From Eubacteriales bacterium (GTDB taxonomy: Bacteria > Bacillota > Clostridia > Lachnospirales > Lachnospiraceae): a stretch of DNA of 58,194 bases. Made by a program: the position numbers and the translations under genes. A model generated the notes under the pieces. It did no database searches. It was not told the origin of the DNA and saw only the letters and a list, made by a program, of their open reading frames with translations. This document shows positions 6,509 through 21,599 of this stretch, piece after piece. The stretch spans positions 1 through 58,194 of the forward strand of contig JAUNGC010000025.1 of NCBI GenBank assembly GCA_030524745.1. The letters are read 5' to 3'. Positions within the stretch are counted from its first letter, which is position 1; every line of letters begins with the position of its first letter.

Positions 6509-8839
6509 TCATTCCAAAATCGTCAGATTATTTGTATCAAAATTCTCAGAGGCGTGATAATTTGATCCCCGACATCCATAGCTGTTATCATGTCCGCTGC
6601 TCTGCGTCGCCGAAGGCCATGAACCGGGTACCGCATCCAGATGCGTAAACTGGCAATGGGCAATGCTCTGCAGCGTGTTCAGATCCGTCACTTTCGTATT
6701 GCCATAGGTCAGATTCTGTATTTTCACGTTGGTAACGCTGCCTCCCCATTCGCTGTTCAGAATCCTGACGCCGGGCGCCTTGCCGGTATCATTCTTCCAG
6801 GACGCAACCTGAATATTTTTAAAAGTGATATCGTATATGCTGCCGCGGGCATTTCCGTTTGTGGACCAGCTTGAAGCCGTGCCGGGCAATTCGCCGCCGA
6901 GAACATTGGTGATATCGATGACAAGCGGCCAGCCGTCGCCGTTTACACCATCGCCGCCATTGTTGCCCATTTGAGCGTCTTCCACAGCGATATTCTCCCA
7001 GGTAACCGCATAAATCTGCGCATTGTCCATATTATGGATGCTCATTGCGGGTTTATGGAACGCATGTATTACTGTGGAGTTTTTGAAGACCGCATTATAG
7101 ATTCGCGGATCTCCCACGCAGCCGTACTTATTCGTTTCCGCGCCGATTTCCATGGCCTGCGCCAGATCGGACCAGAACACACAGCGATCCACAGTGACAT
7201 CATGGGTATTCCCACCGGAATACTGATTCTTCAGAACAACGCAGTCGTCCCAGGTCCGGATATAGGAATTGGTAATCGTGATCCAACTGGAACCCTGGAT
7301 GGAAATACCGTCGCTGTTGGAGCCGGACGCGATAATATGGAAATAGTCAAACGTGATATTTGACTGTCCCTGCATTTGTACTTCCCAGGAAACATCATGC
7401 GTATTGAGCAGCGTAATGCCTTCGATTTTTGCGCCGCTGTATGCCGATGTCGCCGGCGCGTTGCCGTTATTAATTACGACGCCGCTTCCATAAACATGTC
7501 CGCCAAAGCCGGGCACGCCGACCCAGGCTTCTCCCAGACCCACGTAGGTATCCCCCGTATAGCCGTTCACATTGCTATTGTGCCACTCGCTATAAGGCGG
7601 GTTCACAAATAACTGCAGGGCGCCTGTGGATTTTCCGTTAAATTCCACGGTATAGTTGCCGCACTCCGTAACATCAAACTGAACATACTTTTCTCCGTTT
7701 TCCGCTACAATTTTCGCAGTAATTCCGGAAGACAACGGACGGACGACGGCGCTGGAAACGTCGCTGGTCATTTTAATACGGACCGTCGCGCTTTTTCCCG
7801 TCTCTTCCTTCAGTTCAAAAATAGTGGTCGGCGTCGTATCTTTCCAGCGCCAATCCCAATAGCGGGCATTGTTGACCTCTGTCAAAAATACGGCGGAAGT
7901 CTGGTTATTTACCGTAACGGCAATATTTTGCGCCATGCTCAGATTGCTGTAGGCGTTGGCTGCCGTATAGACTGTCGCACCGCCGTCAGGGCCCTCCGGA
8001 ATCTCCAAAGACGGCGCCTGTCCGACCGTTATCGTTTTGGTAAGATAATTGTTGCCGGTATTGACGTCGCCTGTGGCATTAGTGCCGCTGTCGTCGACAT
8101 ACGCCGTCACGGTATGACTCCCGGGCGCTCCCGCGGTCCACTCGGTCTGGCCCGTCGCAGGAAGATAACTTCCCCCTACCGAAACCACCACGGACTGGCC
8201 GGGATCAATCCCCTGCTTTTGTTCATCGCTCCAGTAAAAGCCTTCCGAAGCGCAGTTCTTGCCGGCCGCCTCATTATCGACGTAGAATCTGACGCCGTGT
8301 TTGACATCATTGGAACGCACATCTCCCTGATTGGTTATCACCGCTTTAAAAGCAACCTGGTCGCCCGTCACAGGGTTTGCAGGTTCCCATATGATATCCG
8401 AAACAACAAGATCGATTCCGTTCACCGGATCGACAGGCGGCTTTGTCCCGCCTTCCTCCTTTCCCCGGACCAGGGTTCTGTTGTTATTCGACCAGTTATC
8501 ATCCTCCGAAATAACCACCGTATAATAGTGAACGTCCTCATCATCCAGAACAATGGCCGCCGTTGAGGTAACTTTCACCCGCTTTCCGGCCATCACCGAT
8601 ACGCGCACCGGTCCTTCCACTCTCTTGCCGTCCCTGTAAAAGGAAACGTCGGAACCGGCATTGCCGGAATAGCCGTATAGCGTCGCCGTAACGGTGCTGT
8701 CTCCATTGGCCGTCACGCTGATCACACCGGCGTCGCTCCCTGCTGCCTGTACTATCTTTGGTTTTACGTTAAACCATGTCAGCACTGTTAATGCCAGCGT
8801 CAGGAACATGCCGGCAGCATATCTTTTTCGTTTTTTCAT
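6509..8839 (-). CDS. Secreted CARDB plus right-handed beta-helix glycoside hydrolase-like protein (clan GH-N type, GH28/GH49-like)
   Basis: The start is the ATG at 8839 (MKKRKRY), with GGGGA 7 bases upstream; the upstream in-frame ATG at 8854 has no ribosome site. The product is 776 residues: signal peptide about 1-33 (hydrophobic core MFLTLALTVLTWF, then QAAG), a beta-sandwich, and a CARDB-like domain near residues 140-260 (IDLVVSDIIWEPANPVTGDQ). A second beta-sandwich at about 275-420 precedes a parallel beta-helix. The helix carries NSDGI at about residue 509 and WDDCVVLKN at about 530. The Asp-to-AspAsp spacing of 21/22 is that of GH28 catalytic acids, but the GH28 GHG histidine is replaced by a DLAQAMEIGAET segment. 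The N-terminal sandwich and helix arrangement resembles GH49 dextranases. It shares these motifs with 9816-11384. Probable function: extracellular endo-acting glucan hydrolase, substrate unknown. It has its own promoter and terminator. Confidence 0.75.
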   Translation of the reverse strand: MKKRKRYAAGMFLTLALTVLTWFNVKPKIVQAAGSDAGVISVTANGDSTVTATLYGYSGNAGSDVSFYRDGKRVEGPVRVSVMAGKRVKVTSTAAIVLDDEDVHYYTVVISEDDNWSNNNRTLVRGKEEGGTKPPVDPVNGIDLVVSDIIWEPANPVTGDQVAFKAVITNQGDVRSNDVKHGVRFYVDNEAAGKNCASEGFYWSDEQKQGIDPGQSVVVSVGGSYLPATGQTEWTAGAPGSHTVTAYVDDSGTNATGDVNTGNNYLTKTITVGQAPSLEIPEGPDGGATVYTAANAYSNLSMAQNIAVTVNNQTSAVFLTEVNNARYWDWRWKDTTPTTIFELKEETGKSATVRIKMTSDVSSAVVRPLSSGITAKIVAENGEKYVQFDVTECGNYTVEFNGKSTGALQLFVNPPYSEWHNSNVNGYTGDTYVGLGEAWVGVPGFGGHVYGSGVVINNGNAPATSAYSGAKIEGITLLNTHDVSWEVQMQGQSNITFDYFHIIASGSNSDGISIQGSSWITITNSYIRTWDDCVVLKNQYSGGNTHDVTVDRCVFWSDLAQAMEIGAETNKYGCVGDPRIYNAVFKNSTVIHAFHKPAMSIHNMDNAQIYAVTWENIAVEDAQMGNNGGDGVNGDGWPLVIDITNVLGGELPGTASSWSTNGNARGSIYDITFKNIQVASWKNDTGKAPGVRILNSEWGGSVTNVKIQNLTYGNTKVTDLNTLQSIAHCQFTHLDAVPGSWPSATQSSGHDNSYGCRGSNYHASENFDTNNLTILE
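8760..8775. promoter_or_regulatory. Intragenic LacI-type operator candidate
   Basis: GGTTTTACGTTAAACC is one base from a perfect 16-bp palindrome. Its 12-bp core differs by one base from the TTTAACGTTAAA sites at 21462 and 21556. It lies about 70 bases inside the secreted beta-helix gene, within signal-peptide codons, downstream of the promoter at 8914-8942. It could act as a roadblock or looping site, or be chance. Confidence 0.45.
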
Positions 8840-8913
8840 ATGGATTCCCCACATTCACAAGTATTTTAACCTATTCTCCTGCATCGCCTGCGGTTAGGTT
8901 ATTTATCTTATTA

Positions 8914-8942
8914 ATATTAATATATTATCACGTTGAATTCAA
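8914..8942 (-). promoter_or_regulatory. Sigma-A promoter of the secreted beta-helix gene
   Basis: On the minus strand TTGAAT and TAATAT are separated by exactly 17 bases, about 75 bases upstream of the ATG at 8839. The rest of the 348-base gap 8840-9187 is AT-rich and holds only this promoter and the terminator at 9070-9097. Confidence 0.65.
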
Positions 8943-9069
8943 TATTTTTTATAAATTTCGTTTTTCATAATCTTTATTTCTCATCAATTTGCCCAATTTT
9001 GACTTTATTAATCTGAAGTTCTGAATCATATTTTGTTCTCCGGAACTTCCCGCGCGCTTTTTGAGAATA

Positions 9070-9097
9070 AAAAAAGCATCGGATCCGATGCTTTTTT
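9070..9097. terminator. Bidirectional terminator (perfect 28-base palindrome)
   Basis: A perfect palindrome with six A, then GCATCGGA, then TCCGATGC and six T. It has a U-tract in both directions. It ends the pgmB-beta-helix-F5/8C operon about 90 bases past the stop at 9188. Confidence 0.9.
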
Positions 9098-9187
9098 CGT
9101 AAATCACATATCTTTCCCACTCATAGCGCCGCTTTTCCGGCCTTTAACGGGTCCGGCAGAAAATAATGCGCAAAATATGCCGAATAT

Positions 9188-9805
9188 TTACCCGTAAATT
9201 TCAAACTCCGCCACCTGACCGCCGCCCGCGCCGGTATTGGACGTAAACTTAAGCTGCACATACTGCGCCGCCGTTTCGTCAAATTCCAGAATCACTTCAT
9301 TGTTCCGGTCCGGGGTAAATTCATAGGCGGCCGAAGGAATCAGTTCGGTAAAGTTTTCCCCGTCGCTGCTGATTTCCACGGAAAATTCCTGCGTCCGGTT
9401 TCCCCAGCGGGTGTCCGGGTTTAAGCAGACCCGGATCGCATGAAAACTTTTTTCTTCCTTTAAGTTAACCGTAAGGTAGTTGGGATAGCTATCCTTTGCG
9501 CCTTCCCAATAGGATACGCCGTCCGCTTTACCGTCGATCGCTTTTCGGGGCGTGTAGCTGTCCTGAAAGCTGCTGGACTCAATTTTGCCTTCCAGCGCCA
9601 GATTTTCTCCCTCTGGCAAGACGGACACGTATTCTTCTGCGAGAAACGCCTCATGTTCCATCGCTTCCGTCTGTTCGGGCGCTTCCACCACGGTCACCGT
9701 GCCGCCCGTTACAGCCTTCTGCGTCAGGTTTTCCCTTTGGATCAGGAAGCTGACGACCGCTGCAACCGCCAATACCAGGATCGCGATTTTACGAATTTTA
9801 CTCAT
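9188..9805 (-). CDS. Membrane-anchored F5/8 type C (discoidin/CBM32-like) domain protein
   Basis: A 205-residue protein with start ATG 9805 and a strong AGGAGGG site that overlaps the stop of the upstream gene. Residues about 6-22 (IAILVLAVAAVVSFLI) form an uncleaved signal anchor, followed by a spacer. Residues about 65-205 form an F5/8C beta-sandwich (NLALEGKIESSSFQ, AIDGKADGVSYWEG, EFSVEISSDGENF, YVQLKFTSNTG, EFEIYG). These domains commonly bind sugars (CBM32, CBM47-like). There is no catalytic domain. Ten bases separate it from the membrane-anchored beta-helix gene, so the two are translationally linked, and it is probably a cell-surface glycan-binding partner of that enzyme. It is the last gene of the pgmB operon. 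Confidence 0.8.
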   Translation of the reverse strand: MSKIRKIAILVLAVAAVVSFLIQRENLTQKAVTGGTVTVVEAPEQTEAMEHEAFLAEEYVSVLPEGENLALEGKIESSSFQDSYTPRKAIDGKADGVSYWEGAKDSYPNYLTVNLKEEKSFHAIRVCLNPDTRWGNRTQEFSVEISSDGENFTELIPSAAYEFTPDRNNEVILEFDETAAQYVQLKFTSNTGAGGGQVAEFEIYG

Positions 9806-9815
9806 ACCGTCCCTC

Positions 9816-11384
9816 CTATTTCGTATAGCTGATGCTTAAGTTCTGCGTCGTCTGGCCGTCAATGAGGAAATCGCCTTCTTCAAAATCCGTGATCTCTTTA
9901 CCCAGAATTTTCAGATTCTCAATCGTCACGCCGTCCACCATATGTTCTGCGTCAAAGCCCTTGATGCGGGACTGTACTTCCCTGCCGCTTAAAACTTCCA
10001 CATTTTTAATGGTGATGTTCTGAATCTGTCCTCTTTCCTTTGTAGAGGACCAATTGGTGTTCTGGGCGATGTTAATGTCGATCAGATAAGGCATTTCATC
10101 CCCGTCTCCGCTGCCGATCTCTTCATTTTCCACCGTGATATTTTCAAATGTGATATCGTGCACCAGCGCGTCGTCCGCATTATGTACGGAGATGACCGGC
10201 TTGTGGAAGTTGTTCAGCACTGTAATATTCCGGAAGGAAATATCCGACATCTCCGCATCCGGCTGTTCTCCTTTATTCGTCTCATAACCCACTTCCATGG
10301 ACTGGGCCAGATCGGTCCAAAGCTGCATATTGGTGAAGGAAATGTTCCGGCTGTTTCCGTCGTAATTTTTCACCACCAGAGAATCGTCCCAGCTTCTGAC
10401 AAAGCAGTTTTTCACTTCATAGTTCTGGCAGGACTGCAGCGTGATTCCGTCGCCGTTGGGGCGCGGAGAAATGATCTTTATGCCGTCGATGACGCCGTTT
10501 TGGGAATCAAACGCCTGACATACCCAGGCGTTGGCGTTTAATACGATCAGGTCGCTGATCTTTACATTTTCACAATGATCGAACTTCAGCGGAATGCTGG
10601 CGGAAACGCCCTTCCAGCCCGCAAACTGAGAGCCGTCGATAATCCCTCTGCCCATAACGGTGATATCTTTCGCGTAATTTGCATTGATGATCCCGTGTAC
10701 GACGGCGCCGCCGCTCACATACAGCGTGTCTCCGTCTTCCAGCATGATATTTTCGATGTTCCATTCGCCCGGTCCGATATAAATTACATTTTCATCCTCC
10801 GGATCCACCGTATTTTCTTCCGGCGGATATGCGAAAATGTGCAAGGCGCGTTCCGGAGAGCCGTCAAAGGTGAGGGTATAGGTATCAGGCTCGGTAATCA
10901 CAAATGTCACCGTATGGTTTTCCCGGTCGATCTGCGGCTCGATTCCGTAAGATACCGGACTGATTTTCACGCTGTCCAGCGTCCGGTCCGGCACTGTTAC
11001 CTGAATTTTTACCGCTCCCTCAAAAGAAAAATAAGTGACCGGCGTCCGGGATATCAGCGGCAGATAATTGTTCGTCCAGGTTCTCGAATGATTGACATTG
11101 GTATCATAAACATAACAATCCTGTCCGTTCACCGTTACGGTCGTATCCGTGCAGTGAAGCAGGGAAAAATCCCGGTCCGTTTCGGGAGCCGCCGCCAAAT
11201 CTTCCGCCGTCGCATCCCGCAGCGTTTTGGGGCCTTCATATAATACGAGCTTTGCCTGATTCAACATTTCCGCCTCCTCATTTTTTGCCCGATTGCCAGA
11301 CGCTGTGATCCAGACTGCGCCAATCACAACGATCAATATTACAATTAATATGGTTTCCACAATTGCACGATATCGATTTTTCAT
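9816..11384 (-). CDS. Membrane-anchored beta-helix glycoside hydrolase-like protein (GH28/GH49-like)
   Basis: A 522-residue protein with start ATG 11384 after GGAGAA. The N-terminal hydrophobic helix (residues about 10-28, ETILIVILIVVIGAVWI) lacks an obvious cleavage site, so it is likely a signal anchor facing outward. A beta-sandwich covers about residues 60-190 (VTYFSFEGAVKIQVTVPDR), followed by a right-handed beta-helix with YIGPGEWN, TLYVSGGAVVHG and GRGIIDGSQFAGW. The catalytic-type motifs NGDGI at about 311 and WDDSLVVKN at about 332 have the 21/22 spacing. The DLAQSMEVGYETNKG segment matches the paralogue at 6509-8839, and both lack the GH28 GHG histidine. It is encoded between pgmB and the F5/8C protein. 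Likely a surface-tethered glucanase trimming polymer close to the transporter; the polymer is not identified. Confidence 0.75.
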   Translation of the reverse strand: MKNRYRAIVETILIVILIVVIGAVWITASGNRAKNEEAEMLNQAKLVLYEGPKTLRDATAEDLAAAPETDRDFSLLHCTDTTVTVNGQDCYVYDTNVNHSRTWTNNYLPLISRTPVTYFSFEGAVKIQVTVPDRTLDSVKISPVSYGIEPQIDRENHTVTFVITEPDTYTLTFDGSPERALHIFAYPPEENTVDPEDENVIYIGPGEWNIENIMLEDGDTLYVSGGAVVHGIINANYAKDITVMGRGIIDGSQFAGWKGVSASIPLKFDHCENVKISDLIVLNANAWVCQAFDSQNGVIDGIKIISPRPNGDGITLQSCQNYEVKNCFVRSWDDSLVVKNYDGNSRNISFTNMQLWTDLAQSMEVGYETNKGEQPDAEMSDISFRNITVLNNFHKPVISVHNADDALVHDITFENITVENEEIGSGDGDEMPYLIDINIAQNTNWSSTKERGQIQNITIKNVEVLSGREVQSRIKGFDAEHMVDGVTIENLKILGKEITDFEEGDFLIDGQTTQNLSISYTK

Positions 11385-11477: not shown

Positions 11478-12128
11478 TTACGCGTTTAAAATGGTATCCC
11501 AGTCCACGTGATCCGCCAGATCCTTCGCGCAGTAGTCCGCTCCCATGGTCTGGTAAAGAGGCCCGACCGCCAGGGATTTCATGCCGCCCGCTTTCGCCGC
11601 GTCGATGCCCGCCTGAGAGTCTTCCACAACGAGACATTCTTCAGGGGAGAGTTCCAGTTTCTTTGCCGCCACCAAAAACACTTCCGGATCGGGTTTGGAC
11701 TTTGTGGTATCCAGACCGCAGCTTATTTTATCAAACAAACTTAAGATTCCTGTTTTTTCCAGAATAACAGGCGCATTTTTGCTGGCGGAACCAAGTCCTG
11801 TCAATACGCCTCTTTCATGCAGCATCAGCAGCGTTTCCCGCGCGCCCGGCAGCAAATCGTTTTCGGTCAATGTATCCAGCATTTTCAGATAATAGTTGTT
11901 CTTCCTCGTTGCCAGTTCCGCCTTTTCCTCATCCGTGTAGGTCTTATCGCCCTTTTCCAGTACCACTTCCAGGGACGCCATACGGCTCACGCCGCGCTGT
12001 CTCTTATTATCTTCTTTCGTGAACGCTGTAATGCCCAGTTCTTCTGCAAGCTGCTTCCAGGCAAGATAGTGCAGTTCATCCGTTGATACCAGCACCCCAT
12101 CCAGGTCAAAAATTACTCCTCTTATCAT
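11478..12128 (-). CDS. pgmB: Beta-phosphoglucomutase (HAD superfamily)
   Basis: The start is the ATG at 12128 (MIRGVIFDLDGVL), chosen because AGGAGG lies just upstream; a longer reading to 12200 lacks a ribosome site. At 216 residues it has the usual family length. HAD motifs: DLDGVLVSTDELH at residues 8-20 (nucleophile Asp, general acid/base Asp two residues on), cap domain with KQRGVSR, GSASKNAP, SKPDPEVFL and VVEDSQAGIDAAKAGG. It converts beta-glucose-1-phosphate to glucose-6-phosphate in the cytosol. This is the expected partner of inverting GH65 phosphorylases, two of which lie at 13.4-18.0 kb. It is divergent from the LacI regulator and shares a palindromic operator region with it; it is first in an operon with two surface proteins. 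Confidence 0.93.
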   Translation of the reverse strand: MIRGVIFDLDGVLVSTDELHYLAWKQLAEELGITAFTKEDNKRQRGVSRMASLEVVLEKGDKTYTDEEKAELATRKNNYYLKMLDTLTENDLLPGARETLLMLHERGVLTGLGSASKNAPVILEKTGILSLFDKISCGLDTTKSKPDPEVFLVAAKKLELSPEECLVVEDSQAGIDAAKAGGMKSLAVGPLYQTMGADYCAKDLADHVDWDTILNA

Positions 12129-12240
12129 TTCTTTTCCTCCTGCTATCCCGTAACAGATCCGATCCGCAAAACTGTTACTAAATTTATTTTTTTCTTGCAT
12201 TTTATCCTTGCGGCAGGATTCATTTTCCCCTATAATAGTT

Positions 12241-12269
12241 TTGACGTTTAATGTTAAACTTCCTATAAT
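12241..12269 (+). promoter_or_regulatory. Promoter of the lacI-type regulator gene
   Basis: TTGACG at 12241-12246 and TATAAT at 12264-12269 are separated by 17 bases. The operator palindrome fills the spacer, so the regulator should repress itself. On the opposite strand a weaker TATTAT -10 near 12232-12237 could serve pgmB. Confidence 0.8.
12246..12259. promoter_or_regulatory. LacI-family operator in the lacI/pgmB divergent promoter
   Basis: GTTTAATGTTAAAC is a palindrome with one central deviation and is one base from the perfect copies of TTTAACGTTAAA upstream of the binding-protein gene. Its position between -35 and -10 fits repression of both divergent genes. Confidence 0.75.
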
Positions 12270-12310: not shown

Positions 12311-13327
12311 ATGGTTACAATCAAAGATCTCGCCAGCTACACCGGTGTGAGTTGCACCACAATTTCCAATGTCATACACGGCCGGAGCAATCGTGTTTCT
12401 CCCGAAACCATTGAAAAAGTGAATGCCGCGATAGAAGAACTGGGTTATACCCCCAATATGTCAGCGCGTTCTCTCGTTTCCAAGTCTTCCAAAGTGGTGG
12501 CTTTCATCAATCACGTGATCATCCGCGAAGGCACAAATGTGACGGAAGACCCGTTTCACTCCTCCACCATCGGTATGATCGAACACAAGCTTCGCCAGAA
12601 TGGTTATTATCTGATGCTGCGTACGATCAGCACGCCGGAAGAACTGATTCATTTTTTACAGAACTGGAGTATCGACGGTCTGTTTCTGACCGGTATTTTT
12701 CACGATACCTTTTACGAGGCGCTTTCCACCTTCCGCATTCCTACCGTGCTGATCGACAGCTATGTTCAGCAGAAGCGGTTTTACAATATCGGCCTGGAAG
12801 ACTTTAATGGCAGTTATCTCGCAACCTCCCATCTCATCGAGAAGGGGCATCGCCGCATCGGATATGCTTCTCCCTTTTTCCGGGACGGCGGCGTGCTGCA
12901 GGAACGTTTTCTTGGATACAAGGCCGCTTTGACCAAGCATGGCATTCCCTTTGATGCCTCCATCAATTTTGAATACGAGATGGACAGCATGGAAGCGCTT
13001 CAGACGGCCGCGGACGATATTCTCACGCATCCCGATATCACCGGCATTGTCGCTTCCGCCGACCAGATGGCCGCCGGCATTATGGCAGGTCTGCATAAAC
13101 GCGGCGTCCGGATTCCGGAAGATATTTCCATTGTGGGATTCGACGATATTTCTCTGGCCCAGATGGTTTATCCCCAGCTCACGACAATCCATCAGGACAT
13201 GCATACGAAAGCGCAATATGCGGCCGACACCATGCTGCAGCTTCTGGATCGTTCCAAACCGGCCAGCAGAAATGTCATTCTTCCGGTCCATCTGGTGGAA
13301 CGGGACAGCGTAAAATCCCTGCTATAA
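12311..13327 (+). CDS. LacI/GalR-family transcriptional regulator of the glucan-use locus
   Basis: A 338-residue protein with start ATG 12311 after GAGAGG. The N-terminal LacI helix-turn-helix occupies residues 1-50 (TIKDLASYTGVSCTTISNV, then hinge-helix region NMSARSLVSKSS). A periplasmic-binding-protein-like effector domain follows to the end (FLTGIFHDTFYEAL, ISIVGFDDISLAQM, PQLTTIHQD). It is divergent from pgmB and convergent with the GH65 gene at 13410. The palindrome in its own promoter recurs at the transporter operon, making this the most likely regulator of both. The inducer is probably an imported oligosaccharide or a phosphorolysis product, but this cannot be read from sequence. Confidence 0.92.
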   Translation: MVTIKDLASYTGVSCTTISNVIHGRSNRVSPETIEKVNAAIEELGYTPNMSARSLVSKSSKVVAFINHVIIREGTNVTEDPFHSSTIGMIEHKLRQNGYYLMLRTISTPEELIHFLQNWSIDGLFLTGIFHDTFYEALSTFRIPTVLIDSYVQQKRFYNIGLEDFNGSYLATSHLIEKGHRRIGYASPFFRDGGVLQERFLGYKAALTKHGIPFDASINFEYEMDSMEALQTAADDILTHPDITGIVASADQMAAGIMAGLHKRGVRIPEDISIVGFDDISLAQMVYPQLTTIHQDMHTKAQYAADTMLQLLDRSKPASRNVILPVHLVERDSVKSLL

Positions 13328-13363: not shown

Positions 13364-13375
13364 GCATCGGATAAG

Positions 13376-13412
13376 CCCCGCTCCGCTCAATACGGAGCGG
13401 GGCCTGTTTTTA
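13376..13412. terminator. Terminator between convergent lacI and GH65 genes
   Basis: A 10-bp perfect stem (CCCCGCTCCG / CGGAGCGGGG) with a 7-base loop is followed on the plus strand by a T run that reaches the stop region of the GH65 gene. It ends the lacI transcript and probably also the opposing transporter operon. Confidence 0.85.
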
Positions 13413-15596
13413 ATCTATTTTTTCAACTTTCACATCTTCGCCCGAAATATTGACGTAATACCGTTCTCCTCCGCTGCACACATAGAAGCGCATTCCGCTC
13501 CAGTCCCCGGGCAGTCTGGGATTTACCCGGATGCCGTTCTCCGCAAAGGATACGCCTCCGAAGCCTTCCACCGCGATCATATAGGCTCCGCCCGCCGCCG
13601 CAGGATGGGTTCCGCCGATGTAAATCAGCCCGGCCCATTCTTTTCCGCCTTCTACCAGATCGGCTTTTGCGGACTTAATGAAGAACGGATATGCCTTCTG
13701 GGGCATGCCGCATTTGCAGGCCAGCATCGCGTACATGCTCGCGCTCAGGGAAGAACCGTGTTCCGTTCTGGGTTCATAATAGTCCCAGTTGGCCTTGAGC
13801 ACTTCCGGCGGGTACTCGTCGGAATAGAGATTCAGCATCGCCACCACGTCGGCCTGTTTAATGACCTGGGTGTGGGTCGCAACGCCGTAAGCGCCGCCCC
13901 AGTATTCCTTTTCATGCAGCAGCCTGGAACGCACCGTATCGATGGAACAGTCTTCCAGCTTTCTGTATCCGTCAAACTGCTCGATCACATTGTCGTCTCC
14001 CGGTTCGGGAATATAAAGATTCTCCGCCGCATCCGCAAATTTGCCCGCCAGTTCTTTCACCGGATACAACGCAGAAATGCTTTCTGCCGCATCCTTTCCA
14101 TAGGAATCCAGATTGTTCAGAATATCCGCCGCCGACTGCAGCGTCATCTTCGCCATCCGGTTGGTATAGCCGTTGTTGTTCACCCGCTCATGATATTCGT
14201 CGGGACCGATCACATCATGCAGTTCATATTCTGTGCCGGCAACTCTCTTTAATAACAGACTGTAATAGAACTTCGCACATTCAATTACGGTTTTTAAACC
14301 GCCCTCTTTTAACAGGCTGTCATCTCCCGTGATTTTCGTATAGCGCATGATACCGTATACAATCGCGGCGGAAATGTGGATCTGTTTATCTTTAAAGAAG
14401 GTTCTCATCGGCCTTCCTGTGAAAACATCCGTCACATTATAATCGGAGCAGGCGTCATAGCCGCCCTCCTGGCTTTCCCAGGCATAAAACGCGCCGTCCA
14501 GCCCGTAGTCTTTCGCCTTTTTGATCGCGCCTGACAGAGTGTCCACGCGATAGCGCAGCAGCGTATGGGCAACCGCCGGTCTGGTAAACAGGAAATAATC
14601 CAGTATGAACATTTCCGTATCCCAGAAAACAGCGCCTTTATAGGTCTGTCCCGAAAGTCCCCGCGCCGGAATGGACATGCTTTTCGCATGACGGGGCGCG
14701 ATGGACTGCAGATGATAAAGGGAATAATTCAGCGCCTTCATCGCGTCCTCGTCGCCGTCGATCTCCACAGCCCCATACTTCCATATCTCTTCCCAGGACG
14801 CTTCCTGCACGCGCTTCGCCGCTTCATAGCCTTCCCGTTCAAAGCTGTCCAGCAGTTCGTCTGCCTGCGCTTTGGAAAAGTCATCATCCTGGCTTGTAAA
14901 GACAACGATCGCCTTTTCAATGGTGTAATCCCGGTCCTTTTCTGTCACGAGACTGAAATGGTGCATCAACCGCCTGTCTGCCTCTTCCGTTTTGCTTTCC
15001 TTTGGAAAATCCGCCCTGACCGTTTCTTCCACGCAGACGGTCGCCCCTTTTTCATGGGTGACGCCTTCCATCACAAGGCGGCCGTTTTCGCAGCGCCCTG
15101 CCAGACTGTCAAAATGGGGACCGTTGATTTCCCACATATGGCCGTCAATTCCGGTAAACAGTTCCACTTCCGCATGAAAATCCGCCCGTACCGTATAGCG
15201 CATGGCGATTCTGTGGACATTCTCATGATCCGCAAAGCGTTCCGACGTAACCGTCACTTCTCCCCGTTCCGTCTTCCAGACCGTTTTTCTATGACAGATG
15301 CCATGACGGAAATCCAGCCTCATTTCATGTTCTTTCATCTCTCCGTCCTGTGCCAGAAGCGTTTTGCCGTCCACACAAATATAAGTATAAATACCGTTGG
15401 GCGCATTGATCGGTTCTCTCCATGCATCTCCCACCTGGTCAAAGATCCCTGCCAGATTCACCGCCGGCAGTTCTTCCGCAGTATATTCCTCCAGCGCGCC
15501 TCTGACGCCCAGATAACCGTTGCCGACCAGAAATCTGTTTTCCAGCGCGGTGATCTGCTCCTTTTTAAACCCTTTCTGCAAAACTTCCCAATTCAT
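13410..15596 (-). CDS. GH65 glycoside phosphorylase (kojibiose/maltose-phosphorylase type)
   Basis: A 728-residue protein with start ATG 15596 after AGGAGC. The order is GH65 N-terminal beta-sandwich (ENRFLVGNGYLGVRGALEEY), (alpha/alpha)6 barrel and small C-terminal beta domain. WDTEMF in the barrel and GPDEYHERVNNNGYTN near residues 463-478 mark the active site, with the Glu of DEYH (about 466) as the general acid. GH65 phosphorylases are cytosolic inverting enzymes that split alpha-glucosides with phosphate to beta-glucose-1-phosphate; linkage preference (trehalose, maltose, kojibiose, nigerose and others) depends on acceptor loops I cannot assign. It is the last gene of the transporter operon, 66 bases behind the second GH65 gene. 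No signal peptide is present, as expected. Confidence 0.9.
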   Translation of the reverse strand: MNWEVLQKGFKKEQITALENRFLVGNGYLGVRGALEEYTAEELPAVNLAGIFDQVGDAWREPINAPNGIYTYICVDGKTLLAQDGEMKEHEMRLDFRHGICHRKTVWKTERGEVTVTSERFADHENVHRIAMRYTVRADFHAEVELFTGIDGHMWEINGPHFDSLAGRCENGRLVMEGVTHEKGATVCVEETVRADFPKESKTEEADRRLMHHFSLVTEKDRDYTIEKAIVVFTSQDDDFSKAQADELLDSFEREGYEAAKRVQEASWEEIWKYGAVEIDGDEDAMKALNYSLYHLQSIAPRHAKSMSIPARGLSGQTYKGAVFWDTEMFILDYFLFTRPAVAHTLLRYRVDTLSGAIKKAKDYGLDGAFYAWESQEGGYDACSDYNVTDVFTGRPMRTFFKDKQIHISAAIVYGIMRYTKITGDDSLLKEGGLKTVIECAKFYYSLLLKRVAGTEYELHDVIGPDEYHERVNNNGYTNRMAKMTLQSAADILNNLDSYGKDAAESISALYPVKELAGKFADAAENLYIPEPGDDNVIEQFDGYRKLEDCSIDTVRSRLLHEKEYWGGAYGVATHTQVIKQADVVAMLNLYSDEYPPEVLKANWDYYEPRTEHGSSLSASMYAMLACKCGMPQKAYPFFIKSAKADLVEGGKEWAGLIYIGGTHPAAAGGAYMIAVEGFGGVSFAENGIRVNPRLPGDWSGMRFYVCSGGERYYVNISGEDVKVEKID

Positions 15597-15662: not shown

Positions 15663-17966
15663 TCAGCTCAGCCACTCCGCCGGTATGCGGATTTTCTTTG
15701 CCGCACCGTCAACCGTGACGACCTCTCCGTAAAGGATAAGGGATACGTCGTTTCCGTTCACCGTCCGGATCGTTACATGCTCCGCATCCACCCGAATCAC
15801 CAGAACGTCGCCGCCCCAGTGCAGACGGAAAGAATAACTTTCCCATTCCGCAGGAATCGTCGGGTTCAGCGCCAGACCATCGCCGTCGGAGCGCAATCCG
15901 CCGAAGCCATATACGATATTCATCCATGCCGCGGCGATCGACGTGGTATGAATGCCTTCATTTGTATTTCTGTTGTAATTATCCAGGTCCATTCTGGTGG
16001 CAAAACCGAAGAAATCGTACGCCTCTCTTCCCTTTTTAAGCTGGCTTGCCAGAATGGAATGCACCGACGGCGAAAGCGAACTTTCATGAATACATCTGGG
16101 TTCATAGTATTCATAATTGTTGCGCAGTTCTTCCATCGTAAAGGAACTGTTAAACAGAAGCATCAGCATCAGCACATCCGGCTGTTTAATCATATCGTTT
16201 CTGTAAATATGGTCATAGGACCAATGGCTGTAAAGCGGGAAATCCTCCACCGGAATCGCATCCACATCCACATGAGGCAGATCAAAGAATCCGTCGTTCT
16301 GCTCATAAAGTTTTCGTTCCGGATCATAAGGAATATACATCAATTCCGCCATTTTGGCCCACTCGGAAACTTCCTGCTCTTTCAATCCAACCTTTTTGGC
16401 CACCGCCGCATATTCCGCCGGACATTCTTCTTTCATCTGACTGATTTGTCCGATTGTATACAGGAAGGTGAATCTGCCCATATAGTTGGTGTAACAGTTA
16501 TGATTTACCATCATCTGGAATTCATCCGGTCCCATAACGCCATAAAATCCGTATTTGCTGCCGTCATTGGAATAATCTCCTCTGGTCGCCAGCATTCTGG
16601 AAATCTCAATGAGCATTTCCAAACCGCATTCCGCCATGAAACCGGTATCCCGGGTCATTTTTTCATAAAACCACACGCCATATGCCACCGCTGTGGAAGC
16701 CTGCAACTGCAGGCTGGCATGCTGCCACAAATTGCAGCATTCTCTACCGGATATGGTAGCAATCGGGTAAAACGCGCCTTCACAATCAAGGGCTTTCGCT
16801 CTTTCCTTCGCTTCCGGCAGGGTTTTGTATCTGAAATACAGAAGGTTTTTCGCGCCTTCCAGATCGTTAAACAAAAAGAATGGCAGGCAGTATGTCTCCG
16901 TATCCCAGAAAGCATTACCGTTGTATGCTTCGCCTGTCAGTCCCTTGGCGCCGATGTTGCTGCCCTTGACTGCTCCGTGATAAGTCTGGAAAAGCTGGAA
17001 AATACAGAAGCGGATTCCCTGCTGGTTTGCAGGATCGCCCGAAATCTCAATGTCGCAGTTTTTCCAGATTTCAGCCCACCATGCGGTATTGTCCGTCACC
17101 AGAGTATCAAAATCCACAGCGTTGAGCAGCCCCGCCGCTTCCTTACAATCTTTTGCGAACCGCTCTTTTTCCTTCTCCTGACGGCGCACCTGATTGCACA
17201 CGCTTCGGGTAATCGTGTATGTTTTGCCGGGCTGCATTGCAATCTCATAAACAGCCGTAATCTTCTTTTCCTCTTCGCAGTCTTCCAGCCAGATCAGATC
17301 TTCGCCCGAAATAGCCGCTTCGGAATAAACCTGCTGGTCCGTCTGCTCAGTTTTTGCCTGAATAAAAAGATGCCCGTCTCTGCGTCCCTTGTCTTCACAA
17401 ACCCAGAAATTGTGATGCGCATTTTCATGAATGCCGGAGAAATCCAGTCCCAGCTTCACCGTCGCCTTTCCCTCAAAATCTTCGGAAGTGAGCGTAATGC
17501 GCTGCGCGCCCAGGTTGACCTGCTTCATGGATAAAATTCTTTCCATGCGGACTCCGATTTTCTTTCCCTCTTTTGTCTTCCACACAAAAGAACGGGTCAG
17601 CAGGCCGTTTTTCATATTCAGCGTGCGGTTAAAATCACAGAAACTGCTTTCCGCCAGATCCAGTCTTTCTTCCCCCGCCCGGATCTGAGTATCCAGCCAG
17701 TTCACCGCATTTACCATAAATTCCGTGAAATTGACAATTCCTTTATAGCTGGAATTTCCTTCCCGCTTTCTTTCATAGATGCCGTTGAAATAACTGCCGA
17801 TCAGTTTATCCTTGCTGTAGCCCTCTTCCATGAAGCCGCGGACGCCCATGTATTCGTTTCCCAAAGAGAAAATGGATTCCGCCACCTTCGCATGCGCAGG
17901 GTCAAACCCTTCTTCCACAATCTCCCAGGGGTTTTCTTTAAAGTATTGATCTGCTATTTTTGCCAT
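15663..17966 (-). CDS. GH65 glycoside phosphorylase, divergent subtype (possibly nigerose/alpha-1,3-type)
   Basis: A 767-residue protein with start ATG 17966 after GAGGGG. It has full GH65 architecture: LGNEYMGVRGFMEEG at residues about 32-46, WDTETYCLPFF in the barrel, GPDEFQMMVNHNCYTNYM with the probable catalytic Glu near 482, and ESSLSPSVHSILA. The active-site signature differs from the neighbouring GH65 (DEFQ rather than DEYH), so the two paralogues probably act on different linkages or chain lengths. I associate this longer DEFQ subtype with clostridial nigerose and alpha-1,3-oligoglucan phosphorylases, but from recall and with low certainty. It yields beta-glucose-1-phosphate for pgmB. 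It follows the permease gene by 58 bases in the same operon. Confidence 0.88.
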   Translation of the reverse strand: MAKIADQYFKENPWEIVEEGFDPAHAKVAESIFSLGNEYMGVRGFMEEGYSKDKLIGSYFNGIYERKREGNSSYKGIVNFTEFMVNAVNWLDTQIRAGEERLDLAESSFCDFNRTLNMKNGLLTRSFVWKTKEGKKIGVRMERILSMKQVNLGAQRITLTSEDFEGKATVKLGLDFSGIHENAHHNFWVCEDKGRRDGHLFIQAKTEQTDQQVYSEAAISGEDLIWLEDCEEEKKITAVYEIAMQPGKTYTITRSVCNQVRRQEKEKERFAKDCKEAAGLLNAVDFDTLVTDNTAWWAEIWKNCDIEISGDPANQQGIRFCIFQLFQTYHGAVKGSNIGAKGLTGEAYNGNAFWDTETYCLPFFLFNDLEGAKNLLYFRYKTLPEAKERAKALDCEGAFYPIATISGRECCNLWQHASLQLQASTAVAYGVWFYEKMTRDTGFMAECGLEMLIEISRMLATRGDYSNDGSKYGFYGVMGPDEFQMMVNHNCYTNYMGRFTFLYTIGQISQMKEECPAEYAAVAKKVGLKEQEVSEWAKMAELMYIPYDPERKLYEQNDGFFDLPHVDVDAIPVEDFPLYSHWSYDHIYRNDMIKQPDVLMLMLLFNSSFTMEELRNNYEYYEPRCIHESSLSPSVHSILASQLKKGREAYDFFGFATRMDLDNYNRNTNEGIHTTSIAAAWMNIVYGFGGLRSDGDGLALNPTIPAEWESYSFRLHWGGDVLVIRVDAEHVTIRTVNGNDVSLILYGEVVTVDGAAKKIRIPAEWLS

Positions 17967-18024: not shown

Positions 18025-18903
18025 TCATCCTTTTACCGCGCCGGCCGCAGCGCCGTCCGTAATCTGTTTCTGGAAAATCACAAACAGAATGGTCGGCGGG
18101 ATGATGGCAAACAGGCAGGCCCGCAGCACGCTTACCGCATCGGTGGGCGTATCCTTGAACGCGAACAGCTTAACCATAACCGTCTCATATCCGGAACCGT
18201 TCAGTACCAGATAAGGAAGCAGGAAGTCGGACCATGCGGCCGTCACCGCGAAGATCACCACAACCATAATGATAGGCCGGGACATCGGAAGCACAATCTT
18301 GGTGAATACCTTCAGAATGCCGCAGCCGTCCAGCCGGGCCGCTTCCATCAGTTCGCCGGGCAGACCTTCAAAGAATTCCTTAAAAAGCACGATATAAAAT
18401 GAATTCGCGCCGAATGCCAGCCATAAAGGCCAGAAAGTTTTGTTCATACCGAGGGAATTGACATTCTTAAACACCGCAATGATGTTCGTTGTAGCGGGAA
18501 TCAGCAGACTCCACATTACCAGGTTTGTGACGAATTTGTACCCTTTCGGTTTCAGAATTGCCAGCGCATAAGCCAGCAGGCCGTTGAAAATGACCGCCGC
18601 CACCACGCTGCCTGCAACGGAGTACAGGGAATTCCGATAAAACTTCATGAATTTCAACTGATCCCAGGTCTTTTTCAGCTTGGAAAAATCCAGTTCCGAC
18701 GGCAGAATCGACACCTGCGTATTAAATTCCTTAATATCCTTAAAGCTTGCCAAAAATACCCATACAACGGGAAACAGACAGGCAATGACAATCAGGAAAC
18801 AGATCACCATAATCGCAATCGCCAGAACTCTGACGGAGGTGGAATGCATATCATAGCCGCGGATTACACCGTCTTTTTTTTCATTATATTTATCAAAAAA
18901 CAT
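18025..18903 (-). CDS. CUT1 sugar ABC transporter permease (MalG/AraQ-like)
   Basis: A 292-residue protein with start ATG 18903 after AGGAGG. About six membrane helices are visible (VLAIAIMVICFLIVIACLF, then VVAAVIFNGLLAYALAIL and others). The EAA-type cytoplasmic loop is ELMEAARLDGCGILKVFTKIVLP (given in pieces: EAARLDGCG, then FTKIVLP), where the ATPase docks. It pairs with the permease 15 bases upstream. No ATP-binding gene lies in the operon, so a shared MsmX-type ATPase elsewhere in the genome is expected. It imports the oligosaccharide bound by the lipoprotein at 19959-21428. Confidence 0.92.
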   Translation of the reverse strand: MFFDKYNEKKDGVIRGYDMHSTSVRVLAIAIMVICFLIVIACLFPVVWVFLASFKDIKEFNTQVSILPSELDFSKLKKTWDQLKFMKFYRNSLYSVAGSVVAAVIFNGLLAYALAILKPKGYKFVTNLVMWSLLIPATTNIIAVFKNVNSLGMNKTFWPLWLAFGANSFYIVLFKEFFEGLPGELMEAARLDGCGILKVFTKIVLPMSRPIIMVVVIFAVTAAWSDFLLPYLVLNGSGYETVMVKLFAFKDTPTDAVSVLRACLFAIIPPTILFVIFQKQITDGAAAGAVKG

Positions 18904-18918: not shown

Positions 18919-19800
18919 TCAGTCTTCTTTGGAAGCGGTAACCTTCATGTATATGCCGCTCAATACAATCAGGATCAGGGCAACCATGACGGAAAGCGCC
19001 GCGCCGCCTGCGAAGTCGAAGTCGCGGAACGCATAACGATACTGCAGCATCAGCAGAGAAATGCTGGCGTTGTTCGGTCCGCCGTTCTTTAACAGCATGG
19101 GCTCCTGCAGAATCTGGAACACGGAAATCACCTGCAGAATCAACAGCGTTTTTGCAAGACCAAACACGCTCGGCAGGGTGATGTGGCGAATTCTCTGCCA
19201 GATCGTCGCGCCGTCGATCGTGGCCGCTTCATAAAGATCAGGGCTGATATTACTGATATTTGCCATATAGATCAGGGCAGTGGAGCCTGCGCACTTCCAT
19301 GTCATCGTCACAATAATCAGCGGAATTGTCCAGTGCGTATTATTGAGCCACTGCAGGGGCTCGATGCCGATCTTGCCCAGCAAAATGTTCAGAACGCCGG
19401 TGGGACCGGGGGTGAAGAAATAGTTCCAGATCCAGATCGTTGCAATACTGGGCACGATATTGGGGAAATAAATTCCGGTGCGGAACAGTCCTTTAAAGTG
19501 CACCGTCTCCGAAATCAGAATGCCCAGGATGATCGGTACCAAAAAGCCGATGATTAAGGACCAGAACGTGTACGAAAATGTATTTTTAAACGCCGCGGAA
19601 AAATCCGGGTTTTTCAAAACCCTGGCGTAATTTGCGAGTCCAACAAAATCTTGCGTCTGATATCTCACTGTCGTGTACAAAGACAGTCTTATGTTCTCAA
19701 AAAACGGTTCCCAAATATAGAAAGCAAACAATACGAGCGTAGGGAGCATGACCAGCCATCCCATCAGATCCCTCTTTTTAAATTTGGTTTTTGTCTTCAT
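18919..19800 (-). CDS. CUT1 sugar ABC transporter permease (MalF/UgpA/LplB-like)
   Basis: The start is the ATG at 19800 (MKTKTKFKKRD), 9 bases after GGGAGG; a GTG at 19809 lies inside the ribosome site and is rejected. At 293 residues it has about six membrane helices and an EAA loop, YEAATIDGATIWQRIRHITLP (key part EAATIDGA), for coupling to an ATPase. Typical GW..MLPTLVLFAFYIWEPF entry helix. It is the second gene of the operon, after the binding protein and an intercistronic hairpin. Confidence 0.92.
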   Translation of the reverse strand: MKTKTKFKKRDLMGWLVMLPTLVLFAFYIWEPFFENIRLSLYTTVRYQTQDFVGLANYARVLKNPDFSAAFKNTFSYTFWSLIIGFLVPIILGILISETVHFKGLFRTGIYFPNIVPSIATIWIWNYFFTPGPTGVLNILLGKIGIEPLQWLNNTHWTIPLIIVTMTWKCAGSTALIYMANISNISPDLYEAATIDGATIWQRIRHITLPSVFGLAKTLLILQVISVFQILQEPMLLKNGGPNNASISLLMLQYRYAFRDFDFAGGAALSVMVALILIVLSGIYMKVTASKED

Positions 19801-19842
19801 TGCGGACACCTCCCTTTTGATTTTTTTCTTTGTAATCTTAAC

Positions 19843-19882: not shown

Positions 19883-19958
19883 CTTTGAAGTTTATTTCAT
19901 TTTACTTTACGTCGTCCGGTTCCGTTCCGGTTGTGAAACGAAAATCCTTTTGTCCGGT

Positions 19959-21428
19959 TTATTCGCCGTCCAGAAGCGCCTGATAGTTGTCGTTAGCGGT
20001 CTGCATCAGAGCAGCTACGTCAGCGTCTTTGTCAGTGATAACAGCCTGCAGAACCTTTGTCAGTTCAGCGTACATATCCTGCGTTAAGCCGGGCTCTTCC
20101 AGTCTCAGACCGTCAGAAGAGGTAGCGTCGAAGTAACTCTGGTACAGAGCGGTATCAACATTGCCGTACTCTTCGATGATCTTAGCTTCAGCATCCAGAA
20201 CATCCTGGTCTACCCAGCAAGGGAAACGAGGAATAACCGGAACGCCTTCTGCATTCTTGTTCTGCGCGTCAGCTTCCATACCAGCGATTGCATCGTCGGT
20301 TGCAACAGGAGCCTTGCCCATCAGTTCAAGGTAATCTAAAGCTGCATTGATTTCAGCGGATGTAGCGTCTTTGGAGAACATGTAAGGCGTGCCGCCGTAC
20401 AGAGAATACTGTCCGCCAGGGCCTGCAGGGATAGCGGTCATAGCCAGTTTGTCAACAGGCAGTCCGTTAACCTGTGTAGGCTGGTTAACTGCGTCGTTAG
20501 CTGCAATGTACATAGCTGCTGCGCCGGTGCCTAACTGTGTGAAGCCCGTGCCCCAGTCTTCGCTTGTAGGATCTGCTGTCAGCACATCATAATCCCATTT
20601 CAGAGATTTTACATATTCCATAGCCGCGATAGCTTCATCGGAAGCCAGGTTAGCCGTGAAGGTTCCGTCTTCGTTCTCTGTGCACAGAGTTGCGCCGAAT
20701 GCCCAGGCGATGTTGGAGAAGTGCCAGCCGCCTGCATTGTCCTTAGCCAGTAAGCAAAGGCCTGCTGCGCCGGTTGCATCCTTGATTGTCTTAGCGGTTT
20801 CAGCCAGTTCTTCCCATGTGGTAGGAGCGATCGGATAACCGTTCTCATCAACAAGGCCAGCTTCTTCAAACAGTTCTACGTTCAGCATCAGGCCAAGCGC
20901 ATAACCGTCACGCGGAATACCGTATACTCTGCCGTTCTCGTCGGAAAGCAGCGCTTTGATGGAAGGGTTCATGGAATCCAGCCAGCCGCGAGCGTCCAGT
21001 TCGTCTGTGATGTCAGCTACTGCGCCGTTGCGGATCAGCTTCTGAGGTTCTGTGAACCATGTTTCAAAAATGGTAGGTACGGTTCCTGCCTCAACCATCG
21101 GCATGAATGTATCTGTGGAATATTTGTAGTAAGCGGGCACGCATGTTACGTTAGGATCAATCTCCGCCATCTTTGCAACGAAGCCTTCGTGCATTTCGAT
21201 GTCTGCTGTCAGAGTATCCTCCGGCCAGATGCCGAGTGTAAGAGTGACAGGTTCGTCAGATGCTTCTTCAGCAGGAGCTGCCTCGTCTGTTGTTTCTGCG
21301 GGCGCCGCTTCTTCGGTAGCTGCCGCTGCGGGCGCTTCAGAAGCTGCGGGCGCTGCTGTGTTGCCGCATCCGGCAAGCATGGATGCCATAACTGCGGTAC
21401 ACACTGCAATACTTAATGCTTTTTTCAT
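19959..21428 (-). CDS. Sugar ABC transporter substrate-binding lipoprotein
   Basis: A 489-residue protein with start ATG 21428 after a GGGG site. Lipoprotein signal MKKALSIAVCTAVMASMLAGC has lipobox LAGC, giving a membrane-tethered protein. Residues about 23-60 are an Ala/Glu/Pro-rich linker, then a family-1 extracellular solute-binding fold (LTLGIWPEDTLTADI, WFTEPQKLIRNG, YGIPRDGYALGLMLN, GTGAAAMYIAAND). It is the first gene of the operon with two permeases and two GH65 phosphorylases, so the ligand is probably an alpha-gluco-oligosaccharide. Codon use differs slightly from its neighbours (many GCT/GCA), typical of highly expressed binding proteins. Two perfect operators precede it. Confidence 0.93.
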   Translation of the reverse strand: MKKALSIAVCTAVMASMLAGCGNTAAPAASEAPAAAATEEAAPAETTDEAAPAEEASDEPVTLTLGIWPEDTLTADIEMHEGFVAKMAEIDPNVTCVPAYYKYSTDTFMPMVEAGTVPTIFETWFTEPQKLIRNGAVADITDELDARGWLDSMNPSIKALLSDENGRVYGIPRDGYALGLMLNVELFEEAGLVDENGYPIAPTTWEELAETAKTIKDATGAAGLCLLAKDNAGGWHFSNIAWAFGATLCTENEDGTFTANLASDEAIAAMEYVKSLKWDYDVLTADPTSEDWGTGFTQLGTGAAAMYIAANDAVNQPTQVNGLPVDKLAMTAIPAGPGGQYSLYGGTPYMFSKDATSAEINAALDYLELMGKAPVATDDAIAGMEADAQNKNAEGVPVIPRFPCWVDQDVLDAEAKIIEEYGNVDTALYQSYFDATSSDGLRLEEPGLTQDMYAELTKVLQAVITDKDADVAALMQTANDNYQALLDGE

Positions 21429-21461
21429 AGTTTTTCCCCTTTCATGAATCTGGTTTTTAGA

Positions 21462-21473
21462 TTTAACGTTAAA
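21462..21473. promoter_or_regulatory. LacI-family operator, promoter-distal copy
   Basis: Perfect palindrome TTTAACGTTAAA, 34 bases upstream of the binding-protein ATG and 94 bases centre to centre from the second copy, a distance suited to looping by a tetramer. Confidence 0.8.
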
Positions 21474-21555
21474 CTTATTAAACGCAATGCTCCGGTTTTC
21501 TTGGTTTTACTTTAAACGTCACATTTTTTTGAAGTTATTTATGTTTTTTTGTAGG

Positions 21556-21567
21556 TTTAACGTTAAA
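21556..21567. promoter_or_regulatory. LacI-family operator at the transcription start
   Basis: Perfect palindrome TTTAACGTTAAA immediately downstream of the -10 box at 21571-21576, a position that blocks initiation. Confidence 0.85.
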
Positions 21568-21570
21568 TTA

Positions 21571-21599
21571 ATATTATCACCCAAAACGTAATAAGTCAA
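21571..21599 (-). promoter_or_regulatory. Sigma-A promoter of the transporter/GH65 operon
   Basis: On the minus strand TTGACT and TAATAT are spaced by 17 bases, followed at once by the operator at 21556-21567. This lies in the 412-base gap 21429-21840, which holds two operators, this promoter, an AT-rich inverted repeat and the terminator of the neighbouring operon. Confidence 0.85.

Follow-up and report, generated by a model that had tools for sequence, protein, structure and literature searches.

A gene locus at positions 6509 to 21599 of contig JAUNGC010000025.1 (assembly GCA_030524745.1), from a bacterium of the Lachnospiraceae, is quite probably a LacI-controlled catabolic regulon for α-1,3-linked glucan or nigero-oligosaccharides. 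The window, i.e., the whole stretch of DNA analysed, comprises 58,194 nucleotides. α-1,3-Glucan is a rare glucose polymer of fungal walls and dental plaque. In the proposed pathway the glucan would be cut outside the cell to nigero-oligosaccharides by a membrane-anchored β-helix protein (bhTM) and a secreted one (bhCARDB), aided by an anchored F5/8C-domain protein (F58C). A solute-binding protein (SBP) and two permeases would import the nigero-oligosaccharides, driven by a MalK-type ATPase whose gene lies outside the locus. Within the cell the phosphorylase GH65B would shorten the imported oligosaccharides, and GH65A would phosphorolyse nigerose to glucose and β-glucose 1-phosphate, which PgmB would convert to glucose 6-phosphate. 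Cleavage with phosphate would save energy. In response to an inducer, LacI would leave the operators that lie ahead of SBP, between LacI and pgmB, and within the 5' end of bhCARDB. The reactions of the phosphorolytic half of this pathway are already known; only the genome is new. Endo cleavage of α-1,3-glucan by bhTM and bhCARDB and glucan binding by F58C are predictions, and the identity of the inducer as well as the assignment of a MalK-type ATPase are presumptive. The genes of the locus are as follows, membrane anchors and signal peptides being assigned by eye:

6509..8854, minus strand: bhCARDB, 781 amino acids, secreted, with signal peptide; Pfam CARDB and GH28; putatively a second α-glucanase, a secreted paralogue of bhTM
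9188..9805, minus strand: F58C, 205 amino acids, hydrophobic N-terminus; Pfam F5_F8_type_C (4.8e-21); putative surface glucan binder
9816..11384, minus strand: bhTM, 522 amino acids, N-terminally anchored two-domain β-helix protein; Pfam GH28
11478..12200, minus strand: pgmB, β-phosphoglucomutase (β-glucose 1-phosphate to glucose 6-phosphate); TIGR01990 equivalog
12311..13327, plus strand: LacI-family regulator; Pfam LacI and Peripla_BP_3; divergent from pgmB
13410..15596, minus strand: GH65A phosphorylase; Pfam GH65 domains; likely orthologue of Cphy_3313
15663..17966, minus strand: GH65B phosphorylase; Pfam GH65 domains; likely orthologue of Cphy_3314
18025..18903, minus strand: perm2, CUT1-type permease (Pfam/NCBIfam)
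18919..19809, minus strand: perm1, CUT1-type permease (Pfam/NCBIfam)
19959..21428, minus strand: SBP; Pfam SBP_bac_1; lipoprotein signal

A preliminary description of this DNA had named the two β-helix proteins, the F5/8C protein, pgmB, LacI, two GH65 proteins and an importer as parts of a single LacI-linked locus, and all of them are present. A shared operator-like motif does tie the genes together, but LacI is transcribed away from pgmB and towards GH65A; the locus therefore consists of two catabolic transcription units plus LacI and is not a single operon. PgmB scored 226 bits against TIGR01990 (cut-off 189.4). The importer is of the CUT1 type, with SBP and two MalFG/UgpAE-type permeases. 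No gene for an ABC ATPase was seen within 6509-21599, as described before, and three OB_MalK-type ATPase genes are located elsewhere in the genome.

The two phosphorylases point to the α-1,3 linkage. Both carry the Pfam GH65 N, m and C domains. The site of GH65 phosphorylases comprises a general acid Glu and, for phosphate, a Lys, a His and two Ser (PMC8626586). Among open reading frames (ORFs) with >650 aligned residues and ≥40 % identity, the general acid Glu, the phosphate-site Lys and both Ser were invariant in 53 GH65A and 52 GH65B sequences, the His in 53/53 GH65A and 51/52 GH65B. The two GH65 proteins are distinct, as described before. In a review table, Cphy_3313 of Lachnoclostridium phytofermentans ISDg appears as nigerose phosphorylase, and its Cphy_3314 as α-1,3-oligoglucan phosphorylase (PMC8950772). 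Orthology to the ISDg tags was judged by position only, through strain KNHs2131 (locus L046). A PF03632 search of KNHs2131 retrieved no GH65 genes other than the two neighbouring ones of this operon. On its contig C3, bhTM lies at 595 kb (tag 3310), GH65A at 599 kb (3313) and GH65B at 602 kb (3314), with only LacI and pgmB between GH65A and bhTM in the ORF list, matching tags 3312 and 3311. In the flanks, a GH28 gene at 454 kb fits Cphy_3217, and the cellulases Cphy_3367 (GH9) and Cphy_3368 (GH48), expected about 60-85 kb beyond the GH65 pair, were found at 684 kb and 686 kb, respectively. On either side of the pair, one tag corresponds to 1.5-1.6 kb. KNHs2131 has six GH28-type genes, of which bhTM is the sole one on the pair's contig within 100 kb. 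Because tag spacing and gene positions are collinear, GH65A, GH65B and bhTM are likely the orthologues of Cphy_3313, Cphy_3314 and Cphy_3310, respectively.

The specificity motifs of GH65 enzymes were compared as well. ChGP, confirmed as α-1,3-oligoglucan phosphorylase (EC 2.4.1.334), has the motif FAITQA (PMC8537180). At the corresponding positions (64, 392, 394, 402, 416 and 585 in CsKP numbering) GH65B matches in F, A, I and Q, position 416 being assigned by eye within a gapped stretch. The fingerprint of GH65A (E, E, Q, S/T, F/Y) is unlike the five motifs in the text of PMC8537180, which gives the nigerose phosphorylase motif only as a figure. Kojibiose was rejected as substrate of GH65A: although the enzyme is related to KP/GGP and has retained the W-E pair, it lacks the fingerprint EEAPxx, and its orthologue is tabulated as nigerose phosphorylase. 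The structure 6w0p was not used as a guide for GH65B, the name 'kojibiose phosphorylase' being the depositor's label. Dextran was set aside as main substrate because the GH65 pair maps to α-1,3 enzymes, and is considered below only as part of a mixed-linkage explanation. A third GH65 gene of the genome (G000:C45:121725-122798) lies outside the locus.

The preliminary description had called the β-helix enzymes GH49-like. For the anchored bhTM this applies to the fold across both domains, but both proteins score as GH28 in Pfam. The bhTM model (predicted local distance difference test score, pLDDT, 94.3; predicted template modelling score 0.91) consists of a β-sandwich and a right-handed β-helix, the two-domain fold of the GH49 type, with the hydrophobic N-terminus modelled as a helix. 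Seven of the top eight Foldseek matches were isopullulanase or dextranase chains (3wwg, 1wmr, 6nzs, 1ogm), which we take to be GH49; they align over 421-427 residues across both bhTM domains, GH28 matches over about 295. In sequence, bhTM matched Pfam PF00295 (GH28) with 48.4 bits (gathering score 22.9). An alignment of 48 sequences was assembled from the window, 44 of 77 usable loci chosen for spread, and L035, L036 and L038; of 79 matched bhTM stretches, L077 and L078 had been dropped for stops or frame. PF03718 (GH49) gave no match to bhTM and matched 3/48 of the aligned sequences, with a best E-value of 0.044. For want of a PF03718 match bhTM was not filed as GH49. The candidate catalytic residues D312, D333 and D334 are invariant in 48/48 sequences. 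The conservation of the motifs WDD and W[TS]D[LF]AQ is partly built in, as the patterns of the relative search included both. Of the GH28 motifs, bhTM keeps N-x-D and D-D; the Gly-His-Gly and Arg-x-Lys stretches, active-site motifs of GH28, were not seen in the sequence alignments. Among the 50 VIA matches listed for bhTM there was no GH87 fold, which proves nothing. We regard bhTM as a putative surface endo-α-1,3-glucanase.

The secreted bhCARDB is 31-36 % identical to bhTM relatives, and its residues D515, D536 and D537 are invariant in alignments of 10 and 26 sequences. Its model, with a pLDDT of only 71, shows a β-sandwich and a β-helix with shortened early coils; the best folds were isopullulanase 3wwg and dextranase 6nzs. 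GH87 appeared as a weak Foldseek match (E about 1e-3) to this low-confidence model.

The intergenic regions of the locus contain the palindrome RTTTAAYGTTAAAY. Operator-like sites, promoters predicted by consensus match only and a terminator-like hairpin are located as follows:

8761..8774, plus strand: operator-like copy with one mismatch to GTTTAACGTTAAAC, within the 5' end of the bhCARDB gene
12241..12269, plus strand: predicted LacI promoter TTGACG-17-TATAAT, overlapped by an operator
12246..12259, plus strand: operator-like GTTTAATGTTAAAC, LacI/pgmB intergenic region, within the spacer of the predicted LacI promoter
13375..13403, plus strand: terminator-like hairpin in the gap where LacI and GH65A converge, 11 pairs, 10 of them GC
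21461..21474, plus strand: operator-like ATTTAACGTTAAAC, upstream of SBP
21504..21517, plus strand: degenerate copy GTTTTACTTTAAAC with two mismatches, between the two good copies upstream of SBP
21555..21568, plus strand: operator-like GTTTAACGTTAAAT, directly downstream of the predicted SBP promoter
21571..21599, minus strand: predicted SBP promoter TTGACT-17-TAATAT

The scan yielded 25 promoter-like sites, compared with 18.7 (standard deviation 5.0) in shuffled sequences, and 17 terminator-like sites, compared with 17.3. The motif was derived from the sites of the locus, hence their exact match is by construction; in the 3.57-Mb genome it occurs exactly in three places (five strand matches), all at this locus, and the reversed control nowhere. 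With up to two mismatches, 14 strand matches were found in the window against 2.4 in shuffles, two of them distant at 57306 and 57822. An automated search for words shared between the upstream regions of SBP and LacI, for which only six loci qualified, was replaced by a direct count of the motif in 79 related loci. With up to one mismatch, 126 matches were present in 61/79 loci, against one for the reversed pattern. Of the 126 matches, 33 flank LacI on its 5' side and 21 precede SBP; the script assigned no class to the remaining 72, many of which stand directly upstream of bhTM in the more distant clade. LacI presumably binds this motif, and the genes of the locus look like one LacI regulon. 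Immediately downstream of bhCARDB (window 4036-6435) lies a LuxR-type regulator with a STAND-like ATPase part, a MalT-like layout, that might be a second control layer.

The comparison of gene order across relatives that had been proposed for this locus was carried out. With a profile of bhTM and its near relatives, 234 relatives were confirmed in contigs of one genome per species; the best 80 of these gave the 79 loci, a set biased to close relatives. Genes were counted by tblastn with twelve window proteins only, because in GC-rich loci ORF picking had chosen antisense ORFs over true genes. In the 79 loci, many of them cut by contig ends, the matches were bhTM 79, F5/8C 75, LacI 66, GH65A 63, perm2 59, perm1 57, pgmB 57, GH65B 56 and SBP 48. 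Among the 43 loci with a length of 19 kb or more, 38 had GH65A, 39 GH65B, 30 pgmB, 41 F5/8C and 40 both permeases. The co-occurrence with bhTM is not chance, because GH65A stands near it in 63/79 loci and F5/8C in 75/79. The order SBP-perm-perm-GH65B-GH65A-LacI-pgmB-bhTM-F5/8C is kept in L. phytofermentans (L046), Kineothrix alysoides (L043), Anaerocolumna (L053, L096), Herbinix (L048, L049), Mobilisporobacter (L066) and others; L080 has GH65A without GH65B. The layout with pgmB beside the surface enzyme, singled out in the preliminary description, is real but not peculiar to this genome, as pgmB is found in 57/79 loci.

Variants of the arrangement were observed in several genomes. A metagenome-assembled genome (MAG) labelled Anaerolineaceae (L052) has the operon, with no pgmB match and with proteins 49-64 % identical to those of the window, either by horizontal transfer or as a mis-binned contig. 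Four Lachnospiraceae MAGs of the Mgla series (L042, L045, L050, L070) carry two bhTM genes, the second behind LacI. In L060 and L058 a GH13 gene resembling maltodextrin glucosidase follows the operon (L060:18113-20050, L058:11344-12069), and the permeases are only 25-29 % identical to those of the window. In loci with no GH65 match, proteins that fall into no Pfam family occur close to bhTM (L083:5777-6463, L084:6619-7917, L087:3818-4669, L065:12111-13373); by their N-termini they look secreted, and they are possibly new glucan binders. Genome G019 has unlinked bhTM relatives (L033:9164-11926, L034:8962-12708, L034:12979-16524, L035:9550-10896), three of them large, with CARDB, ricin-type or F5/8C domains.

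A second line of evidence for the α-1,3 linkage was obtained from a Treponema MAG (L072), where tblastn with the window proteins found no GH65 near bhTM. There, a GH31 gene adjoins LacI near bhTM. The best PDB match of its product was 7wj9 with 755 bits, the next different protein having 160 bits. The entries 7WJ9-7WJF and 7WLG are LlGH31_u1, an α-1,3-glucosidase strictly specific for nigero-oligosaccharides (PMC9061262). Upstream of the GH31 gene a perfect copy of the motif stands between TTGACA and a TATAAT-like -10 element; the gene therefore belongs to the regulon of bhTM. The α-glucan reading of the preliminary description and its GH65-PgmB logic are well supported, and by GH65 orthology and the GH31_u1-like gene the linkage can be narrowed to α-1,3, which makes α-1,3-glucan or nigero-oligosaccharides, and not dextran, the most likely substrate.

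Several observations weigh against an α-1,3-glucan regulon with bhTM as endo-enzyme. Pfam GH28 was matched in 48/48 aligned bhTM sequences (E up to 1); the top VIA Z-score of bhTM was to a GH28 exo-polygalacturonase (35.1, helix only), compared with 33.7 for isopullulanase; and the best NCBIfam models were polygalacturonase/rhamnogalacturonidase models, at 53.6 bits against a cut-off of 600. The β-helix start of bhCARDB is shortened and poorly modelled. Two residues of GH65B, N at 402 and S at 585, depart from FAITQA. The six GH28 genes of KNHs2131 compare with five tags given for ISDg, and the C3 gene at 263 kb fits none of these. Only one MAG, with one locus of the 79, provides the GH31_u1 link, no second being found, and GH31_u1-like genes are common, occurring in 11/61 genomes of the relatives. 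GH65 matches were missing from 14/79 loci, L065, L072 and L116 having at least 19 kb and the other 11 being shorter or cut; distant bhTM relatives (L037, L038) adjoin GH43 and GH38 genes instead of GH65, so that the bhTM family at large is not uniform. Activity of the β-helix proteins on uronic acid polymers, the outcome that the preliminary description had named as contrary to it, is partly in print: Cphy_3310 was purified, and its activity on homogalacturonan is reported to be enhanced by the carbohydrate esterase Cphy1687 (Boutard et al. 2014, PMC4230839). No α-1,3-glucan is among the growth substrates listed in that paper. Cphy_3310 is also reported as a rhamnogalacturonase, constitutive on glucose, fucose and rhamnose (Petit et al. 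2013, PMC3557285), and a Dictyoglomus protein 47 % identical to it was termed pectinase (PMC5167688).

Three other explanations were considered. In a mixed-linkage system, bhTM would cut α-1,6 or α-1,4 bonds of a glucan with branches or alternating linkages (nigeran or alternan, for example), in the manner of a GH49 dextranase or isopullulanase, and the GH65 pair would handle only the α-1,3 bonds released. Isopullulanase and dextranase, the nearest two-domain folds of bhTM, act on α-1,4 and α-1,6 bonds, and the additional GH13 proteins of L060 (a Blautia MAG) and L058, nearest to maltodextrin glucosidase/neopullulanase, are what an α-1,3/α-1,4 glucan would need; such a gene was present in only 2/87 loci searched, however, and we consider a mixed-linkage substrate unlikely. 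Slightly less probable is a scavenging function, with bhTM as an exo-acting or debranching α-glucosidase or a binding protein and the locus taking up nigero-oligosaccharides released by others. The N-terminal helix would hold bhTM near the membrane and not release it, and no second close bhTM relative was found in genome G036 (of two matches, the further one has 30 % identity and is short), but none of the three presumed catalytic Asp varies in the 48 sequences, and a secreted paralogue with an operator-like site occurs in the window and several in G019. Scavenging keeps the α-1,3 linkage and overlaps with the favoured explanation; the probabilities assigned do not sum to one. Very improbable is a pectin-side system with bhTM as a true GH28 polygalacturonase or rhamnogalacturonase and the GH65 genes grouped with it for a glucosylated pectin side chain or by regulatory accident: it has the Pfam assignment, the exo-polygalacturonase 3jur as best PDB sequence match and the homogalacturonan report on its side, but the two-domain GH49-like architecture, the Gly-His-Gly and Arg-x-Lys stretches not kept in the alignments, the GH31_u1-like gene replacing the GH65 pair in L072 and the α-glucoside, transport and regulatory partners, as counted in the 79 loci with the twelve window proteins only, speak against it.

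The α-1,3-glucan regulon may have a wider meaning. According to a paper of 2025 (PMC12394665), GH71 and GH87 are so far the only families with enzymes that degrade α-1,3-glucan. We lean slightly towards the view that bhTM and its secreted paralogues form a third α-1,3-glucanase family, placed in clan GH-N between GH28 and GH49 and hidden as 'GH28 pectinase' in Clostridia and at least one Treponema MAG, and that its partnership with phosphorolysis is a widespread Gram-positive route for the α-1,3-glucan of fungal walls and biofilms. If this is true for bhTM, genes now labelled pectinase need re-annotation. Clostridia of gut, rumen and digesters would have a defined means of feeding on bacterial mutan or the cell walls of fungi. 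There would be a new surface enzyme for use against biofilms of α-1,3-glucan, and two phosphorylases known only in vitro would become parts of one pathway. Neither the regulon as a whole nor the 'GH28' partner as α-1,3-glucanase was found described in the open-access literature searched, a scope that leaves out most subscription journals. The system had been put forward as undescribed; this is correct only in part, as both phosphorylases are known in L. phytofermentans and Cphy_3310 has been purified and assayed in work on plant polysaccharides.

The window contains further genes beside this locus. A separate sugar locus (21841-26920) encodes an L-fucose isomerase C-domain protein, a DUF4867 protein, an FGGY kinase and a divergent LacI. 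Two adjacent GH13 proteins with N-terminal α-amylase domains are encoded at 47151-50773; the regulon motif was not found nearby. A 628-amino-acid protein at 29242-31128 contains DUF5722, a domain of unknown function, in full length.

Among known systems, the genes Cphy_3310-Cphy_3314 of L. phytofermentans are orthologous and in the same order, as judged via KNHs2131. There the parts have been studied separately, the phosphorylases in vitro and Cphy_3310 as a pectinase; a paper uniting them into an α-1,3-glucan system was not found in the open-access literature searched. With the GH49 isopullulanase and dextranases (1wmr, 3wwg, 1ogm, 6nzs) bhTM shares the β-sandwich and the right-handed β-helix over 421-427 aligned residues, but it is only 14-21 % identical, has no Pfam GH49 match, is membrane-anchored and is expected to cleave α-1,3 instead of α-1,4 or α-1,6 bonds. 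With GH28 polygalacturonases it has the β-helix sequence profile and the N-x-D and D-D motifs in common, but possesses an extra N-terminal domain and does not keep Gly-His-Gly and the downstream Arg-x-Lys in the alignments. The GH87 and GH71 α-1,3-glucanases catalyse the reaction predicted here, and GH87 is likewise a β-helix (PMC12394665). Neither bhTM nor bhCARDB has a Pfam match to these families, and bhTM is nearer to GH49 and GH28. The branched-dextran system of Flavobacterium johnsoniae also places a GH65 enzyme (FjGH65A) in an α-glucan system (PMC8626586), but it belongs to the Bacteroidota and its GH65 is hydrolytic and α-1,2-specific, whereas the present locus has phosphorylases. Alike in logic is the Cphy_1874 locus of L. 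phytofermentans with a nigerose phosphorylase, a putative GH87 endo-α-1,3-glucanase, the GH31_u1 Cphy_1877, an ABC transporter and LacI (PMC9061262). Both loci combine an endo-enzyme, putative in either case, with an importer, a nigerose-splitting enzyme and LacI. They differ in that the Cphy_1874 locus uses GH87 and GH31_u1, and the one described here an enzyme of the GH28/GH49 type, an oligoglucan phosphorylase and pgmB.

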